Shown here one piece after another: positions 26,094 through 37,067 of a DNA stretch of 64,000 nucleotides. The stretch's first letter is position 1. Each line of letters opens with the position of its first letter. A program made the translations under genes and the position numbers. The notes below the pieces were generated by a model that worked only from the letters and a program-made list of their open reading frames with translations, was not told the origin of the DNA and did no database searches. The stretch lies in contig NZ_JAHOPH010000011.1 in assembly GCF_019798055.1 (NCBI RefSeq), positions 62,001 to 126,000 of the forward strand, written 5' to 3'. The DNA is from Salsipaludibacter albus (lineage in GTDB: Bacteria; Actinomycetota; Nitriliruptoria; Nitriliruptorales; Nitriliruptoraceae).

Positions 26094-29000
26094 ATGAATC
26101 CTGTCGTCCGACTGTCCCGTCCTGCCCGCAGCCTGCTCGTCGTCGTCCTGACGACGCTCGTGGCGCTCGCGCTGGCAGTGCCTGCCGCCCGAGCCCAGGA
26201 CGCCGACGTCCAGCCCGGCGTCACCTTGCGCGTGTACGACCTGGGCGGGGTGTCGCTGTCGGAACTGTGCACCCTGCGGAGCGGACAGACACCCAACGTC
26301 GACAAGTACATGCCGGTCATCGACTACTCGGCCGAGGCCGACTTCGAGATGTCGGACAACTTCATCTCGCACACGATCGCCGACCTGGTCGTGCCGACCG
26401 ACGGTGAGTACACCTTCCGGCTGACCAGCGACGACGGTTCGCGCCTGTCGCTGGACGGCGAGGTCGTCGTGGACCACGACGGGCTCCACGGCATCGACCC
26501 GCCGGCCGAGGGATCGGTCGCCCTGACTGCCGGCACGCACGAGCTCTTCCTCGAGCACTTCGAGGCGGGCGGCGGCCAGCAGGTCACGTTGGAGTGGCAG
26601 GCCCCCGGTGCGACCGGCTTCGAACTGGTGCCCACCGAGAACCTGCAGACCCCGAGCGACGTCGTGCGCGTGACCGCCCCCGGGACCAAGTCCTGCGAGG
26701 GCGCCACCGACACGCCCGGTGACGGTCTCCGACTGGACGCCGTGCACCCGAACTACGACCTCACCGACCTGCGCCCCGAGGGCTTCGAGCCGATGGTGTC
26801 CTCGCTGGCCTGGGACGACGACCGGCTCGTGCTGACCACCTCGGGCGACGTCAGCCCCGGCGGCGGCGTGCCGCCGTCGGAGACCGGTGAGCTGTACGTG
26901 CTCGACAACGTGACCGGCGTCACCAGCGCCGACCAGGTCACGGTGACCAAGCTCGCCGACGACCTCCTCAACCCGATGGGCGTCGCCGTCGTCGACGGCA
27001 CGATCTACGTGTCCGAGCGTGACGGCCTCGTCGCCATGCGCCCCGACACCGACGGTGACGGACTCCTCGAGCAGGAGCAGCTCGCCTCGTGGCCGTTCGG
27101 GGGCAACTTCCACGAGTTCGCCTTCGGCCTGCTCCACGAGGACGGCCACTTCTGGGTGAACCTGTCCGTGGCCATCGACGCCGGTGGTGCGACCACCGAC
27201 CCGCAGCCCGCGGACAACCGCGGGACCACGATCAAGATCGACCCCGACACCGGTGACGTCGAGTACGTGGCCAGCGGCCTGCGCACCCCCAACGGGATGG
27301 GACTGGGCCCGGACGGTCAGTTGATGGTGATGGACAACCAGGGGGCGTGGCTCCCGTCGTCCAAGCTCCTGGCGGTCGAGCAGGACCGGTTCTTCAACCA
27401 CCGCACCAACCCGCCCGGTCCCTTCGACGACCAGCCCGTCACCCGCCCGGTCCTGTGGCTGCCCCAGAACGAGATCAGCAACTCGCCCTCGAACCCCGTG
27501 CTGCTCGAGGACGGCCCGTTCGCCGGCCAGATGCTGTTCGGTGACGTGACCTACGGTGGTCTCCAGCGGGCCTTCCTCGAGGAGGTCGACGGGGTCATGC
27601 AGGGTGCGGCGTTCCGCCACACCGCGGGACTCGAGGCAGGCGTCAACCGCACCATCGTCGGTCCCGACGGCGACATCTACGTCGGTGGCATCGGCGAGGC
27701 CGGCAACTGGAGCGAGGGCGGCAAGCTGAAGTACGGCCTCCAGAAGCTCAGCCCGAACGGCACCAACGCCTTCGACGTCCAGGAGATGCGGGCCACGGCC
27801 ACCGGCTTCGAGTTCACCTACACCCAGCCCCTGTCGGCCGAGACCGTCGACGCCGTGACCGCCGACCCGGCGACCGCCTACCAGGTCGAGCAGTGGACCT
27901 ACAGCCCGTCGCCGTCCTACGGCGGTCCCAAGATCGGCGAGGAGTCCCTCACGCCGTCCGCGGCCACCGTGTCCGGCGACGCCACCACGGTCACCCTGGA
28001 GATCCCGGGCCTGAAGCGCAACCGTGTCGTGCACGTCCGCTCGCCGCGGCCGTTCACCTCCGACTCCGGCGAGCAGCTGTGGAACACCGAGGCGTGGTAC
28101 ACGCTCAACGAGATCCCCGACGACGAGCAGCCGCTCTTCCACGAGGCCGAGGAGGGGGTCCTGGACGGTGGTGCCGTGATCGCCACCGACCACGCCGCCT
28201 ACTCCGGTGACGGCTTCGTCGCCAGCGTCAACCAGGCCCACAGCGGCACCCGCTTCCGGGTCGTCGTCGACGAGGCCGGGTCCTACGACCTGGGGGTGCG
28301 CTACGCCAACGGTCCCAACCCGTTCTCCGGCGACAAGACCATGCGGATGCGGGTCAACGGCGAGGAGAGCCAGGAGGTGGTCTTCCCCAGCACCATCGAG
28401 TGGGGCATCTGGGCGACCCAGCGCGAACGCGTCGAGCTCGAGGCCGGGGCCAACCTGGTCGAGTTCGACGTCGGCCCGGACAGCACCGGGCACGTCAACC
28501 TCGACGCGATGACCGTCCGGCCCGCCGGTGAGCGGATCCAGCTGATGGGCGACGGTGCCGACGGCCTGTCCGAGTGGCAGCACACCGATGGACGCGCCCC
28601 CGAGTGGCCCGAGGTGTCCGACGGCGTCTACGAGGTGTGCTGTGGCGACCTGCGCACCAAGGAGGCGTTCGGCGACTACTCCCTGCACGTCGAGTTCTGG
28701 CTGCCCGAGTTCCCGCCGGACGTGACCGGCCAGGCGCGCGCCAACAGCGGCGTCTACCAGCAGGAGCGCTACGAGATCCAGGTGCTCGACTCGTTCGGCA
28801 TCGATCCGTTGCAGGACAACGACGCCGCGGCGATCTACACCCAGAAGGCCGCCGACAGCAACGAGGCGACCCCGCCCGAGACGTGGCAGACCTACGACAT
28901 CGACTACACCGCGGCGCGCTACGACGCCGACGGGAACAAGGTCGCCAACGCCCGGGTCACGGTGACCTGGAACGGCGTGGTCGTGCATGACGACGTCGAG

Positions 29001-32000
29001 ATCACCGGTCCGACCGGGGGCAACCTGCCCGAGGGCCCGGCGACCGGCGCGATCCGCCTGCAGGACCACGGCGACCCGGTCCGCTACCGCAACGTCTGGA
29101 TCGAGCCCGAGTACAACGCCGTGCCCGACCTGACCGCGACGGCCGAGCCGACCAGTGGCGTCGCGCCGCTCGACGTGGCGTTCACCGCGTCGGCGACCGA
29201 CCCCGAGGGCACCGACGTCACCTACTCGTGGGACTTCGGCGACGGCTCCGACACCGTCACGACCGCCGACGCCAGCCACACCTACGACACGCCGGGCACC
29301 TACCGGGCCTCGGTGACCGCCACCGACGCCGACGGTCGCTCGACGGGCCGTGCCTTCACCATCGACGTCGACCCGGACTGCTCGGGTGACGTCGATCCGA
29401 ACGACGAGTTCGAGGGTGATGCGCTCGACCTGTGCCGCTGGACCGAGATCCTGCGCGAGGACACCGACCACTACCGGGTCACCGACGGCGAGCTCCAGAT
29501 CGACGCGCTCGACGGTGACATGCACGGTGGCGCGACCAACGCCGCCAACGTCATCCTCCAGGACGCACCGGACACCGACAGCTGGTCGGCCACGACGCAC
29601 GTGACCCTGCCGCAGGGCGAGGAGTACGAGCAGGCCGGCATCCTCGTCCACCAGGACGACGACAACTTCGCCAAGCTCATGCTCATGGACGACCCGACCC
29701 GCGGGTGGATCGCCGAGTTCGGCCAGACCGTCGGTGGGTCCGCGATCCACGACGGCGGCCTGGACCAGTCCGCGCCGCTGCCCGACGGCATCAACACCGA
29801 CGGGGTCTGGCTGCGCGTGACCAGCAACGGCATCGGCCTGACCGCCGCATGGTCGGCCGACGGCGAGACGTGGACCTCGTTCGGTCGCACCCGTCCGCTG
29901 GACTCCCTGCCGGACCCGAACATCGGGCTGGCCGCCTACAACGGCGATGGCCAGGCCGCCGGGTTCGACTTCTTCCACGTCGGCGACGGCGGCGCGCCTG
30001 CCTGCCAGGACCCGACCACACCCGAGGAGGGCTACCGGATGCTGTTCGACGGCACGCCGGCGAGCTTCGACGAGTGGGTCATGGCCGGTCCCGGTGGCTT
30101 CGCGCTCCAGGAGGACTGCTCGCTGCTGTCCCAGGGCGGCCTCGGGCTGCTCTACCACCCGGACAGCTTCGAGTCCTACTCCCTGAAGCTGGACTGGAAG
30201 CTGGCCGGTGACGACAACGGCGGCGTGTTCGTCGGCTTCCCGAACCCCGGGGACGACCCGTGGGTCGCGGTCGACAACGGCTACGAGATCCAGATCGACG
30301 CGACCGACGACCCGGACTCGACCACGGGTGCCATCTACGACTTCCAGGCCCCGGTCGCCGACGCCCGCGATTCCGCGCTGAACCCGCCCGGCGAGTGGAA
30401 CTCCTACGAGCTGGTCGTGACGGGTGACCGCGTGCGCGTCATCCTCAACGGGGTCGAGGTCAACGACTTCACCAGCACCGAGGACAACCGCCTCGACGGC
30501 CTGACCCACGTGGGGATCCAGAACCACGGTGGCGGCGACGAGGTCTTCTACCGCGACATCCAGGTCATGGAGGTCGACACGCCGGACGGCCCGGCGCCCA
30601 GCCTCGAGCTGACCAGTCCCGACGACGGCGCCACCGTCGACGGCGACACCGTGACCGTCGCCGGCACGACCGACGGCGAGTCCGTCGACGTGCGGCTCGG
30701 GACGCAGCTGTGGGAGGTCACCCCGACCGACGGCGAGTTCAGCGTGGAGGTGCCGGTCGAGACCGGCGGAAACGACCTCACGGTGTACGCCTACGCCGAG
30801 GACGGCACCTCGACGGTCGCCACGCGCAGTGTCATGGCCCGCAACTACGGCGAGTTCGTCGGTTCGCTCGACGACCCGGCCGGTGACGACGACGGTCCGG
30901 GCAGCTACGTCTACCCGTCCAACGAGGTGTTCTCCGACGGCGTGTTCGACCTCACCGGCATGGAGGTGTACCGCGACGGGGACGACTACCGGTTCGTGGT
31001 CAGCATCGACGGCCCGGTCACCAACCCGTCCGGTTGGGGCGGCGACGAGATCGCCCTCCAGCGGGTCAACGTCTACGTGGGTGAGGGTGGGGGTGACGCC
31101 CAGGCAGCCCTGCCCGGCACCAACATGGACACCGAGTCGTCCTGGGAGTCCACCGTGGTGATCCACGGTCGGTTCGACCAGGCCGGCGTGTGGGCGCCCG
31201 ACGGCACCAAGATCGCCGACGGCGAGCTCTTCGCGGTCCCCGAGACCAACGAGTTCGGTGTCGTGGTGCCCGCCAGCGCCTTCGGTGACCTCGACCTCGA
31301 CAGTGCCGCCTACGGCACCGCGATGTTCATCGACGCCGAGGGTGGCGAGGGCATCGGCAACGTCCGGCCCGTCTACTCCCTGGAGTACTGGGAGAACCCG
31401 CCCGCGGGCATGGGCTACATCAACGAGTGGCGCCCGGGTGGCGGTGCCGGCGAGTGGGACTCGAGCCCGTCGCACGACACCGACACCAGTGACCCCAACG
31501 CCCTCGACGTCATCGTCGGACCCGGCCAGGACCAGTCCGTGGTCCTGGACTGGACCATCGACTCGCCCACCCAGGTGCCGATGCTGGCGCTGGACGGCGC
31601 GCTCGAGCCGCTGACCCTGGACGTGTCGGTCGACCCGGCCGACCCCGACGGACAGGACGGCTGGTACGTCTCGCCGGTCACCGTCACGGCGACCAGCACC
31701 GACGACGCCACGATCGAGTTCTCGGTCGACGGCAGTGAGTGGGTCGCCGACGAGGACGGTGTCCTCGAGGTGACGGCCGACGGGTCCCACACCGTGGAGG
31801 TCCGCGCCGTCCGTGGTGACGAGACCACAGAGGTCGAGACCATCAGCATCGACCTCGACGGCACCGCGCCCGAGGTCGACGTGGACGGGATCACCGACGG
31901 GGCCACCGTCGGGTCCTCCGACGTCGTCGACGTGGCGGTCGACGCCACCGATGCCACGTCCGGCGTGGCCGAGGTCGTCGTGACGGTCGACGGTGACGAG

Positions 32001-32378
32001 GTCGCCTCGGGTGACGCGCCACACTCACTGTCGCTGCAGGCCTGGGACTGGTCGCTCGGCGAGCACGTCCTGACCGTCGAGGCGGTCGACGTCGCGGGAA
32101 ACAGCGTGGTCACGGAGGTGACCTTCACGATCGAGACGTCCCTGGACGACCTCCAGGCCCACCTGGACCGGCTGGCCGACCAGGGCGAGCTCGACGACAA
32201 GGACCACCGCTGGATGACGCGCAAGGTCGAGCTGGCCGAGCGCATGGACGACCGCGGCAACGTGGACGCCTACCATGACCAGCTCGAGGCGCTCCTCGGC
32301 TGGGCCGAGCGACTGGACTCCGCGGACGCGCGTGACCTGCTGGTCCGCGAGCTGGAGGGGCTGCTCGACCAGTCCTGA
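26094..32378 (+). CDS. Giant secreted multidomain carbohydrate-active protein (PA14, propeller, CBM, two DUF1080, PKD)
   Basis: A 2094-residue secreted protein with signal peptide cleavage after residue 34 (ARA|QD). Domains I read, in order: PA14 (about 42-189); a beta-propeller like those of sugar dehydrogenases (216-556); a beta-sandwich module (557-684); a CBM6/35-like domain (682-812); a DUF1080 / 3-keto-disaccharide hydrolase-type lectin fold (814-1006); PKD (1008-1094, WDFGDGS); and a DUF1349-like concanavalin fold (1101-1298). These are followed by a second DUF1080 (1309-1497), an Ig-like domain (1501-1583), a glucodextranase-C-like module (1583-1837), two further Ig/chitobiase-like modules (1840-2013), and a helical FIMAH-like end (2013-2094). 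It probably binds and processes polysaccharide outside the cell. No LPXTG or C-terminal membrane span is present. A strong terminator follows. Confidence 0.85.
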   Translation: MNPVVRLSRPARSLLVVVLTTLVALALAVPAARAQDADVQPGVTLRVYDLGGVSLSELCTLRSGQTPNVDKYMPVIDYSAEADFEMSDNFISHTIADLVVPTDGEYTFRLTSDDGSRLSLDGEVVVDHDGLHGIDPPAEGSVALTAGTHELFLEHFEAGGGQQVTLEWQAPGATGFELVPTENLQTPSDVVRVTAPGTKSCEGATDTPGDGLRLDAVHPNYDLTDLRPEGFEPMVSSLAWDDDRLVLTTSGDVSPGGGVPPSETGELYVLDNVTGVTSADQVTVTKLADDLLNPMGVAVVDGTIYVSERDGLVAMRPDTDGDGLLEQEQLASWPFGGNFHEFAFGLLHEDGHFWVNLSVAIDAGGATTDPQPADNRGTTIKIDPDTGDVEYVASGLRTPNGMGLGPDGQLMVMDNQGAWLPSSKLLAVEQDRFFNHRTNPPGPFDDQPVTRPVLWLPQNEISNSPSNPVLLEDGPFAGQMLFGDVTYGGLQRAFLEEVDGVMQGAAFRHTAGLEAGVNRTIVGPDGDIYVGGIGEAGNWSEGGKLKYGLQKLSPNGTNAFDVQEMRATATGFEFTYTQPLSAETVDAVTADPATAYQVEQWTYSPSPSYGGPKIGEESLTPSAATVSGDATTVTLEIPGLKRNRVVHVRSPRPFTSDSGEQLWNTEAWYTLNEIPDDEQPLFHEAEEGVLDGGAVIATDHAAYSGDGFVASVNQAHSGTRFRVVVDEAGSYDLGVRYANGPNPFSGDKTMRMRVNGEESQEVVFPSTIEWGIWATQRERVELEAGANLVEFDVGPDSTGHVNLDAMTVRPAGERIQLMGDGADGLSEWQHTDGRAPEWPEVSDGVYEVCCGDLRTKEAFGDYSLHVEFWLPEFPPDVTGQARANSGVYQQERYEIQVLDSFGIDPLQDNDAAAIYTQKAADSNEATPPETWQTYDIDYTAARYDADGNKVANARVTVTWNGVVVHDDVEITGPTGGNLPEGPATGAIRLQDHGDPVRYRNVWIEPEYNAVPDLTATAEPTSGVAPLDVAFTASATDPEGTDVTYSWDFGDGSDTVTTADASHTYDTPGTYRASVTATDADGRSTGRAFTIDVDPDCSGDVDPNDEFEGDALDLCRWTEILREDTDHYRVTDGELQIDALDGDMHGGATNAANVILQDAPDTDSWSATTHVTLPQGEEYEQAGILVHQDDDNFAKLMLMDDPTRGWIAEFGQTVGGSAIHDGGLDQSAPLPDGINTDGVWLRVTSNGIGLTAAWSADGETWTSFGRTRPLDSLPDPNIGLAAYNGDGQAAGFDFFHVGDGGAPACQDPTTPEEGYRMLFDGTPASFDEWVMAGPGGFALQEDCSLLSQGGLGLLYHPDSFESYSLKLDWKLAGDDNGGVFVGFPNPGDDPWVAVDNGYEIQIDATDDPDSTTGAIYDFQAPVADARDSALNPPGEWNSYELVVTGDRVRVILNGVEVNDFTSTEDNRLDGLTHVGIQNHGGGDEVFYRDIQVMEVDTPDGPAPSLELTSPDDGATVDGDTVTVAGTTDGESVDVRLGTQLWEVTPTDGEFSVEVPVETGGNDLTVYAYAEDGTSTVATRSVMARNYGEFVGSLDDPAGDDDGPGSYVYPSNEVFSDGVFDLTGMEVYRDGDDYRFVVSIDGPVTNPSGWGGDEIALQRVNVYVGEGGGDAQAALPGTNMDTESSWESTVVIHGRFDQAGVWAPDGTKIADGELFAVPETNEFGVVVPASAFGDLDLDSAAYGTAMFIDAEGGEGIGNVRPVYSLEYWENPPAGMGYINEWRPGGGAGEWDSSPSHDTDTSDPNALDVIVGPGQDQSVVLDWTIDSPTQVPMLALDGALEPLTLDVSVDPADPDGQDGWYVSPVTVTATSTDDATIEFSVDGSEWVADEDGVLEVTADGSHTVEVRAVRGDETTEVETISIDLDGTAPEVDVDGITDGATVGSSDVVDVAVDATDATSGVAEVVVTVDGDEVASGDAPHSLSLQAWDWSLGEHVLTVEAVDVAGNSVVTEVTFTIETSLDDLQAHLDRLADQGELDDKDHRWMTRKVELAERMDDRGNVDAYHDQLEALLGWAERLDSADARDLLVRELEGLLDQS

Positions 32379-34296: not shown

Positions 34297-34335
34297 CCAG
34301 TCGGCCGGGTCCGGTCAGGCGGGCTCGGCAGCCCC

Positions 34336-34391
34336 ACGACGAACGACGCGCCGCCACCGGGATCACCGGGGGCGGCGCGTTCGAACGTCGT
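34336..34391 (+). terminator. Two-tier terminator hairpin after the mutase gene
   Basis: An inner 10-bp stem (ACGCGCCGCC at 34346-34355 with GGCGGCGCGT at 34371-34380) is nested inside an outer 6-bp stem (ACGACG at 34336-34341 with CGTCGT at 34386-34391). The loop itself contains ACCGG/ACCGG repeats. It sits in the 150-bp gap between the mutase gene and the convergent small gene. Confidence 0.72.
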
Positions 34392-34446
34392 GAACGGCGG
34401 GTGGCCGGTCATGCTGGCGACGTGGCTGGGCGGGGCCGGGATCGGC

Positions 34447-34659
34447 TCAGGCGGCCATCGCGGCCGGAGCCATCGGGGTCAGCGAGTTGGCACCGGGAGC
34501 GTGGTGGGCGACCTGGTCGCCGTTGCGCAGGACGGCCTCGCCGCCGCAGGAGCAGGCGACCACGGTCAGCACGCCGTGCGCGGTGTTGGCGTGCTCGCGG
34601 ATCGCGTGCACGTCCACGAGACGGGGGGTGTCGGTGTCGGGGCAGGTGATGAGGAACAT
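34447..34659 (-). CDS. Small 70-residue protein with TCP and CSCGG motifs
   Basis: This short soluble protein starts at the ATG at 34659 (GGAGG eight bases upstream). It opens MFLITCPDTDTPRLVDVH and has a second Cys group, VVACSCGGEAVLRNGDQVAHH, followed by an Ala/Pro-rich tail. The three Cys and several His could bind a metal such as zinc, like a minimal zinc ribbon. I do not recognise the family. It is divergent from the LysR regulator at 34792 (132 bp between starts), an arrangement in which LysR proteins often control the neighbour. Confidence 0.7.
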   Translation of the reverse strand: MFLITCPDTDTPRLVDVHAIREHANTAHGVLTVVACSCGGEAVLRNGDQVAHHAPGANSLTPMAPAAMAA

Positions 34660-35718: not shown

Positions 35719-35728
35719 TCCTCCCCCC

Positions 35729-35804
35729 GGCCCCACCTCCCCCCGGCCCCACCTCGCCCCGGCCCCACCTCGCCCCGACCCCACCTCGCCCCGACCCCCA
35801 CCCC
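35729..35804 (+). repeat. Tandem repeat, 16-bp unit, about 4.7 copies
   Basis: Units of the form GGCCCCACCTCGCCCC follow one another at 35729, 35745, 35761 and 35777, with a partial fifth unit at 35793. Units 2 and 3 are identical; the others differ by one base. The array starts 11 bp after the lysR stop. One strand is almost free of G. Confidence 0.85.
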
Positions 35805-35823: not shown

Positions 35824-35902
35824 GATGTGAGTTCGTCGCGGCGATGTGAGTTCCACGCATCCTCGCGTCGAACTCACATCGGGACGCGCAACCCACATCG
35901 CG
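35824..35902 (+). repeat. 79-bp hairpin repeat, copy 1
   Basis: Two direct units GATGTGAGTTC (35824, 35843) are followed by two inverted units, GAACTCACATC (35870) and CAACCCACATC (35889); the spacing within each pair is 19 bp. The inner pair forms a stem of 11 plus 4 bp with a single mismatch and a 6-nt loop. A second copy, 74 of 79 bases identical and in the same orientation, is at 36989-37067. The two copies bracket the gene at 36006-36917. Confidence 0.88.
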
Positions 35903-36005
35903 TGCGGGGTCGACGAGGGGGTGGAGGGGCGTGCGGAGGAGTCGGTTTTCCACAGTCCGTCGGAGCGGGGGCCGCCAGGCTGGCAGGACCGGGCAGGCTC
36001 GCGCA

Positions 36006-36917
36006 ATGCTGCTGTGGAAGTCCGTCCTCGAACTCGCCGCCCGCCAGGGCGGTCGCATCACGATCCAGCAGGTCACGGAACTGGGGGTGCTCGCGTCGAC
36101 CTTCACCCGTCGTGGCAGCGAAGAAGGATGGACTCGCGAGAGCCGGGGTGTCTGGCGGATGCCGGGTGCGCGGACCGATCGCCTCGGGCGGTTGTGGGCC
36201 GCGGTCCTGGCCTGCGGGCCGCAGGCCATGGTCACCGGTGCCGACGGGCTGTGGCTCCGAGGCGTCGGCCGTGCTCCCCGGACACGGCCCCGGATCGTGA
36301 CCCCGATGGAGACCCACGCGGCGCGGCACCTGCGCTCGCGGGCGAAGGTGATCAGCAGTCGGACCCTGCGTCCCACCGACGCCGGCGCGGCGAAGGGCCT
36401 CCCGTGCGCCCTGGCCACGCGCTGCTTCGTGGACCTGGTGATCCCGCCGACGCCGTCCGCCGCCGACGTCCGCGACCTGCTGGTCACCGCGCGGCAGGCG
36501 CGTCAGGTCGACGTCGCACGGCTGCAACAGAGCATCCGCCAGGCACGAGGTGTCCCGGGTCTGCCGGTGTTGCGCCGGGCGGTGGCCGACGTGCTGGACG
36601 TCGAGGCGGACTCGCCGTTCTCCGATCGTGTGCACCGACGCCTCCTCCGCGAGGGCCTGCGTCCCGATCCCGCCCCCACGCCGGTGCCCACGCATCGACG
36701 CACGCTGCATCCCGACATCACCTTCACCGATGAACGGGTGGCGATCGAGTGCGACTCGATGCTCGCGCACAGCGAACAGCGGGAACTGATGGTGGACAAT
36801 CGGAAGGACCGCGCCTACTCCCGGGCGGGTTGGGAGCCGTTGCGGATCGGGACGTGGGAGTTCGATCGCCACTGGGGGGACTTCCTCGACGACCTCCACG
36901 ACGCCCTCGCCGGCTGA
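36006..36917 (+). CDS. AbiEi-like/DUF559-like protein (winged-helix N-terminus, Vsr-type nuclease fold C-terminus)
   Basis: This 303-residue protein belongs to a family common in actinobacteria, often labelled AbiEi antitoxin domain or DUF559. The N-terminal 60 residues form a winged-helix-like region (LELAARQGGRITIQQVTELG), and the middle part is helical. The C-terminal 70 residues resemble the Vsr/DUF559 nuclease fold, with Asp237 in HPDITF, Glu248-x-Asp250 in AIECDSM, then NRKDRAYSRAGWEPLRI. I find no AbiEii-type toxin gene beside it. The ATG at 36006 has a weak ribosome site; a GTG at 35931 would add 25 residues. Its main distinction is the pair of 79-bp hairpin repeats on either side. 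Confidence 0.72.
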   Translation: MLLWKSVLELAARQGGRITIQQVTELGVLASTFTRRGSEEGWTRESRGVWRMPGARTDRLGRLWAAVLACGPQAMVTGADGLWLRGVGRAPRTRPRIVTPMETHAARHLRSRAKVISSRTLRPTDAGAAKGLPCALATRCFVDLVIPPTPSAADVRDLLVTARQARQVDVARLQQSIRQARGVPGLPVLRRAVADVLDVEADSPFSDRVHRRLLREGLRPDPAPTPVPTHRRTLHPDITFTDERVAIECDSMLAHSEQRELMVDNRKDRAYSRAGWEPLRIGTWEFDRHWGDFLDDLHDALAG

Positions 36918-36988
36918 TCCCTTCATTCGGGTCCCGTCACGAACCGCCCACCTCGCCGAGGCGTCTTCGAGTTCGGTCCGCAGGGCGT

Positions 36989-37067
36989 GATGTGAGTTCG
37001 TCGCGGCGATGTGAGTTCCACGCACCCTCGCGTCGAAGTCACATCGGGGCGGGCAACTCACATCGCG
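36989..37067 (+). repeat. 79-bp hairpin repeat, copy 2
   Basis: Same length and orientation as copy 1, with five substitutions. GATGTGAGTTC occurs at 36989 and 37008; the inverted units are GAAGTCACATC (37035) and CAACTCACATC (37054). Copy 2 lies 71 bp after the stop of the bracketed gene. The rest of the gap to ppc (37068-37289) holds no gene that I can support. Confidence 0.88.

Follow-up and report, generated by a model that had tools for sequence, protein, structure and literature searches.

The closest described counterparts of the locus reported here are the REP/RAYT elements (REPtrons) and REPIN systems. In these, an enzyme gene is flanked by its cognate palindromic repeat, and the same repeat is also dispersed between genes (PMC3733652, PMC3686654). 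REP repeats are mostly tandem or convergent and often doubled; paralogues have their own repeats, and the repeat may change between orthologues (PMC3733652, PMC3686654). Repeat binding is also known for AbiEi proteins and for Rv2827c of Mycobacterium tuberculosis. They bind inverted repeats in their own promoters, four 23-bp repeats in the case of Rv2827c (PMC7319586).

The locus lies in a stretch of 64,000 nucleotides of the Salsipaludibacter albus genome (the window). A gene for an AbiEi-Vsr-like nuclease with a hairpin repeat on either side is found between lysR and ppc, in surroundings of housekeeping genes (Table 1). A comparison with REP/RAYT shows that two features of the REPtron are shared: a palindromic repeat is present on both sides of the enzyme gene, and the same repeat is dispersed in extragenic positions. 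However, the flanked enzyme is an AbiEi-Vsr-like nuclease and not a Y1 tyrosine transposase (PF01797). A search for a RAYT/IS200 Y1 transposase is negative for both genomes of the genus and positive for 6 of 14 controls, and the GTAG/CTAC tag of REPtrons is absent from all 17 repeat copies. Furthermore, the units here are larger (42–76 bp), and the elements are found mainly in Actinomycetota, which is missing from the GTAG/CGTC phyla given in PMC3733652.

With AbiE type IV toxin-antitoxin systems the protein shares an AbiEi-type N-terminal DNA-binding domain with the fold of 6y8q and 1zel, and repeat binding is expected of it. Unlike an AbiEi antitoxin, it carries a C-terminal nuclease, no toxin gene lies beside it, and repeats are found downstream and genome-wide. 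With I-Bth0305I (3r3p) and the MTES_1575/DUF559 nucleases it shares the catalytic fold and the D...E...H residues of the EDxHD type. Vsr-like homing endonucleases differ in two respects: the present cassette is intergenic and not placed in an intron, intein or conserved gene, and it lies between whole repeats rather than between the two halves of a target site.

No paper with both AbiEi and DUF559 was found in the open-access literature, and in a paper that mentions MTES_1575 the term serves as a domain name. To our knowledge, and in the open-access literature, no described system pairs a nuclease of the Vsr-like class with cognate dispersed repeats. The arrangement works like a REPtron yet is not one, the enzyme that defines REPtrons being a different one. 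Under a loose definition, by which any enzyme with cognate dispersed palindromes belongs to the same kind, it would be included. It offers a testable role for a very common, uncharacterised class of actinobacterial genes and would explain where dispersed hairpin repeats of these genomes come from, a source not described so far. It would also show the enzyme-plus-cognate-repeat arrangement of REP/RAYT arising independently with an unrelated nuclease. In addition, paralogues seem to carry their own repeats, which would make them a natural library of protein–site pairs for nuclease specificity.

Table 1. Features of the cassette and of the corresponding junction, in window coordinates
Feature	Position	Strand	Basis
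Left hairpin repeat, 76-bp core	35824..35899	+	repeat comparison, folding, genome model
Units of the left repeat	35824-35833 (+), 35843-35852 (+), 35871-35880 (-), 35890-35899 (-)		
Right hairpin repeat, 76-bp core	36989..37064	+	repeat comparison, folding, genome model
Units of the right repeat	36989-36998 (+), 37008-37017 (+), 37036-37045 (-), 37055-37064 (-)		
AbiEi-Vsr-like nuclease gene, 303 aa, ATG start (likely)	36006..36917	+	
AbiEi-like DNA-binding region, residues 4-179	36015..36542	+	PADLOC AbiEi; Foldseek 6y8q, 1zel
Vsr/MTES_1575-like nuclease domain, residues 200-301	36603..36908	+	profiles, alignment, Foldseek 3r3p
Mutase/small minus-strand gene junction: cassette site in the sister species, cassette absent here	34297..34504	.	

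Architecture of the cassette

The sequence-only reading of this DNA had noted a pair of repeats in the same orientation, matching at 74 of 79 positions, that encloses one gene, each with two direct and two inverted units at 19-bp spacing. Both observations are borne out. The copies (35824-35902 and 36989-37067, 79 nt each) are 94% identical and equally oriented, exactly one gene lies between them, and the unit starts are spaced 19/28/19 in both. Single units carry 0–2 mismatches. With at most one mismatch, the 11-mer of the repeat occurs seven times in the 64-kb window, always inside the two bracketing copies; in shuffles the average is 0.56 and the highest count 2. Both copies fold into nested hairpins that are much more stable than shuffles (z = -5.2 and -5.9). 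No other pair of copies in the Salsipaludibacter albus genome is as alike as this one. By chance, a given gene would have copies of such a dispersed family no more than 150 bp from each of its ends with a probability of about 4e-7.

The left repeat is placed about 105 bp upstream of the nuclease start codon, and a second full copy follows the stop codon. The ATG is the likely start of the gene; its frame is open further 5', from GTG 35931.

The same reading had assigned a winged helix and a Vsr/DUF559-like domain to the protein. The resemblance is remote by sequence and is confirmed by the structure model. Pfam MTES_1575 (PF18741) matches with E=1e-5 and AbiEi_4 with E=3e-3, both under the Pfam cut-offs (the curated one for MTES_1575), and the NCBIfam search gives no match. 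The PADLOC AbiEi models match residues 4-179 with E=1e-12. An AlphaFold2 model of the 303-aa protein (mean pLDDT 89) was searched with Foldseek. The AbiEi antitoxin of S. agalactiae (6y8q) and M. tuberculosis Rv2827c (1zel) are found with E values of 3e-5 to 1e-4. For I-Bth0305I (3r3p), a Vsr-like homing endonuclease, the match is to the catalytic domain and extends over nearly the whole target, with a weaker E value of 0.03 but a probability of 1.00. Ser203, Asp237 (36714-36716), Glu248, His255 and Asp264 are invariant in 17 of 17 aligned homologues, and the protein is therefore likely to be an active nuclease.

A dispersed repeat family

A genome search model built from ten copies identifies the repeat family as 17 elements (34 strand-matches) in the 4.25-Mb Salsipaludibacter albus genome. 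The layout is identical in all 17 copies, with 10-bp units at 19/28/19 and without insertions or deletions. Between copies the units are 90% identical and the linkers 51%, and the units would thus be the recognised sequence, kept for this function. All copies are intergenic. Of the 16 with both neighbouring genes called, seven lie between convergent and nine between co-directional genes, and none between divergent ones.

Repeats without a DUF559-type gene nearby had been named beforehand as evidence against a partnership of protein and repeat. Literally this holds for 15 of the 17 copies, as should be the case for a dispersed family that has a single source cassette.

In the phylum sample, none of 395 further genomes contains the exact double-unit pattern, and a search of 33 further family genomes with the repeat model gives no hit. 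Rfam gives no match to the repeat, and the open-access literature contains its sequence in unrelated papers only. The repeat was also considered as an RNA family with compensatory pairing; this was rejected, the unit variants co-occurring within a half-element and not across the stem.

Turnover between sister species

The two genomes of the genus, both draft assemblies, were compared. The sister species (G345), which by its loci matches the MAG Nitriliruptorales LH_M21, contains at least 12 repeat elements. Orthologues lacking flanking repeats would have counted against the partnership; the G345 orthologue, 59% identical, is flanked on both sides by the same repeat family. The gene order in the window is mutase, small gene, lysR, repeat-gene-repeat, ppc. 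In G345 it is mutase, repeat-gene-repeat, lipoprotein-like gene, small gene, lysR, ppc. Thus the neighbour genes are shared, the position of the cassette differs by about 2 kb, and the gene with both repeats is conserved as a unit while its position is not. The difference in order could instead reflect movement of the block of small gene and lysR. No repeat is detected in either species at the junction that holds the cassette in the other, and no target-site duplication is found.

The repeats themselves differ between the species. Their centre is 18 bp long in 17 of 17 copies here; in G345 it is 19 bp in 11 of 12 and 20 bp in one. Linkers are more alike within each of the genomes (identity 0.59 and 0.50) than across the two (0.38), and none of 2000 label permutations is as extreme. 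The repeat pair at a gene junction common to both species is no more alike (0.35). One element site of this genome is empty in G345 (L034 vs L091); among the loci compared, this one empty site and one shared junction were seen. The split in centre length, the linker identities and the empty site indicate that the repeats have spread or been homogenised in each lineage since the species split.

In one G345 element (L093:2030-2127) the left side carries three direct units, which would fit duplication of single units.

Homologues with repeats of their own

Genes of the AbiEi-MTES_1575 type are matched by profile in 136 of 397 sampled genomes, with up to 6 recorded per genome. The 17-sequence alignment was too diverse for a genome scan, and a closer alignment gave 24 loci. 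Across Actinomycetota, 27 of 73 homologues are bracketed by their own, differing hairpins, at a threshold fixed after the first cases had been seen; the 73 were taken from a profile search blind to the flanks, and high-scoring homologues are favoured among them. Of 323 control windows with matching geometry, taken from the first locus set, 5 show bracketing (four of the five are one tandem repeat), and of 25 ppc genes none does (Fisher p of 2e-17 and 7e-5, respectively). It had been proposed to see whether each DUF559-type gene has its own pair. These 27 genes do, while about 60% of the tested homologues, L002 of this genome among them, are not detectably bracketed. The latter may have lost their repeats, have repeats that are too diverged, or serve another role.

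The repeats of homologues usually have units of 42–83 bp, in which an internal loop parts an outer stem of about 10 bp from an inner one, and are often tandem with periods of 60–83 bp. Bracketed examples include the paralogues L003, L004, L005 and L006 of this genome and Nitriliruptorales relatives. Bracketing in addition to the 27 is found in actinobacterium IMCC26207 (L080), in a Planctomycetaceae MAG (L081) and in Tsukamurella tyrosinosolvens, where the gene (WP_068740572.1) has DUF559 as its sole annotation. Dispersal is seen in all four repeat families tested, including that of the window. The L004 repeat has 28 matches on about ten contigs and the L080 repeat occurs as 21 near-identical palindromes, with 0 in the control in each case. 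The Tsukamurella repeat is found in six places, in three records of one strain. Over 50 loci, protein and repeat similarity track each other weakly, a relation confounded by conserved neighbour genes.

Some further homologues are to be noted. The flanking genes of L236 and L251, from two genomes, have 74–77% DNA identity, yet the nucleases between them reach no more than 34%, which would fit a replacement of the cassette at one site. Between the orthologous loci L227 and L232 the flanks are 75–84% and the nucleases 62% identical, and the bracketing repeats no longer align over their full length. L084, L086, L087 and L088, short proteins of Corynebacterium that share the nuclease motif, have no bracketing repeats.

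Possible mechanism and alternatives

We consider it the best reading, and more probable than not, that the locus is a repeat-associated nuclease element, the protein of which binds and cuts or nicks its cognate hairpin and so drives repeat turnover and cassette movement. The N-terminal AbiEi-type module would bind the repeat units, with two direct sites per half-element, a natural supposition given the promoter binding of AbiEi proteins described above. The nuclease would then nick or cut the repeat DNA or an extruded hairpin. Repair or transposition after the cut could homogenise and spread the repeats, and the whole repeat-gene-repeat cassette might occasionally be moved. Binding to the left copy may additionally regulate the nuclease gene.

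A bolder form of this mechanism is possible, and we put it forward only tentatively: a self-spreading two-part element, in which the nuclease cuts solo repeats at other sites of the genome and the break is repaired from the cassette, with the flanking repeats as homology arms. The cassette would then home into repeats, and the repeats would spread as small non-autonomous elements. Such an element would be an Actinomycetota counterpart of REP/RAYT, with a homing-type nuclease and the DNA-binding domain of a toxin-antitoxin system as its origins.

The sequence-only reading had proposed that the protein recognises the repeat and regulates itself, protects the locus or moves the cassette. The partnership gains support from comparative data, the bracketing being conserved in the orthologue and recurring with other repeats around many homologues. 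Mobility is supported in part, for the cassette by its differing position among shared neighbours in two species and for the repeats by the turnover of centre length and linkers. Autoregulation may coexist with these activities but leaves the downstream and dispersed copies unexplained.

The strongest competitor of the nuclease element, which we think unlikely, is an AbiEi-like regulator, with the bracketing repeats as its own operators, the dispersed repeats as its regulon and the nuclease domain as secondary. The promoter binding of AbiEi and Rv2827c (PMC7319586), the position of the left repeat before the start codon and units more conserved than linkers, as in binding sites, all agree with a regulator. 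However, a complete copy stands 3' of the stop codon, the catalytic residues are conserved and the repeats turn over between sister species. Moreover, divergent promoters flank none of the 16 dispersed copies (P ~0.01 if one quarter is expected), and the seven between convergent gene ends fit a regulon poorly.

It is improbable that the repeats are host elements, such as terminators, mRNA stabilisers or chromosome-organising sites, with the gene between two of them incidentally. Strong hairpins that are all intergenic and often at gene ends could suggest this. Against it, the bracketing is kept at another position in the sister species, unrelated repeats bracket homologues, and a two-sided placement has the low chance given above. 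In addition, the pattern is absent from the other genomes of the phylum sample, and the model finds nothing elsewhere in the family.

A role in defence, or as an AbiE toxin-antitoxin locus of type IV, is even less probable. Apart from the N-terminal AbiEi homology, from which this idea derives, PADLOC gives only AbiEi models for the window protein, and no AbiEii (DUF1814) toxin gene is adjacent at the locus, the neighbours being lysR and ppc in a housekeeping setting. Matches are found in no phage records and in few plasmid records. Protection of the locus, as proposed earlier, is thus not supported. It is very improbable that these are ordinary REP/MITE elements which a RAYT or IS200-type transposase at another locus mobilises, the nuclease being carried along: the repeats are REP-like in being palindromic, intergenic, dispersed and tandem or doublet, but neither genome of the genus has a Y1_Tnp gene by a search that is positive in 6 of 14 control genomes, the GTAG tag is missing, and the repeats go with the nuclease gene family, each member with its own.

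Other features of the window

A C-rich 16-bp tandem repeat of about five copies is found at window positions 35720-35799, between lysR and the left hairpin. A very long open reading frame (26094-32378) looks like one for a secreted protein, large and multi-domain, in which PKD-like repeats occur.
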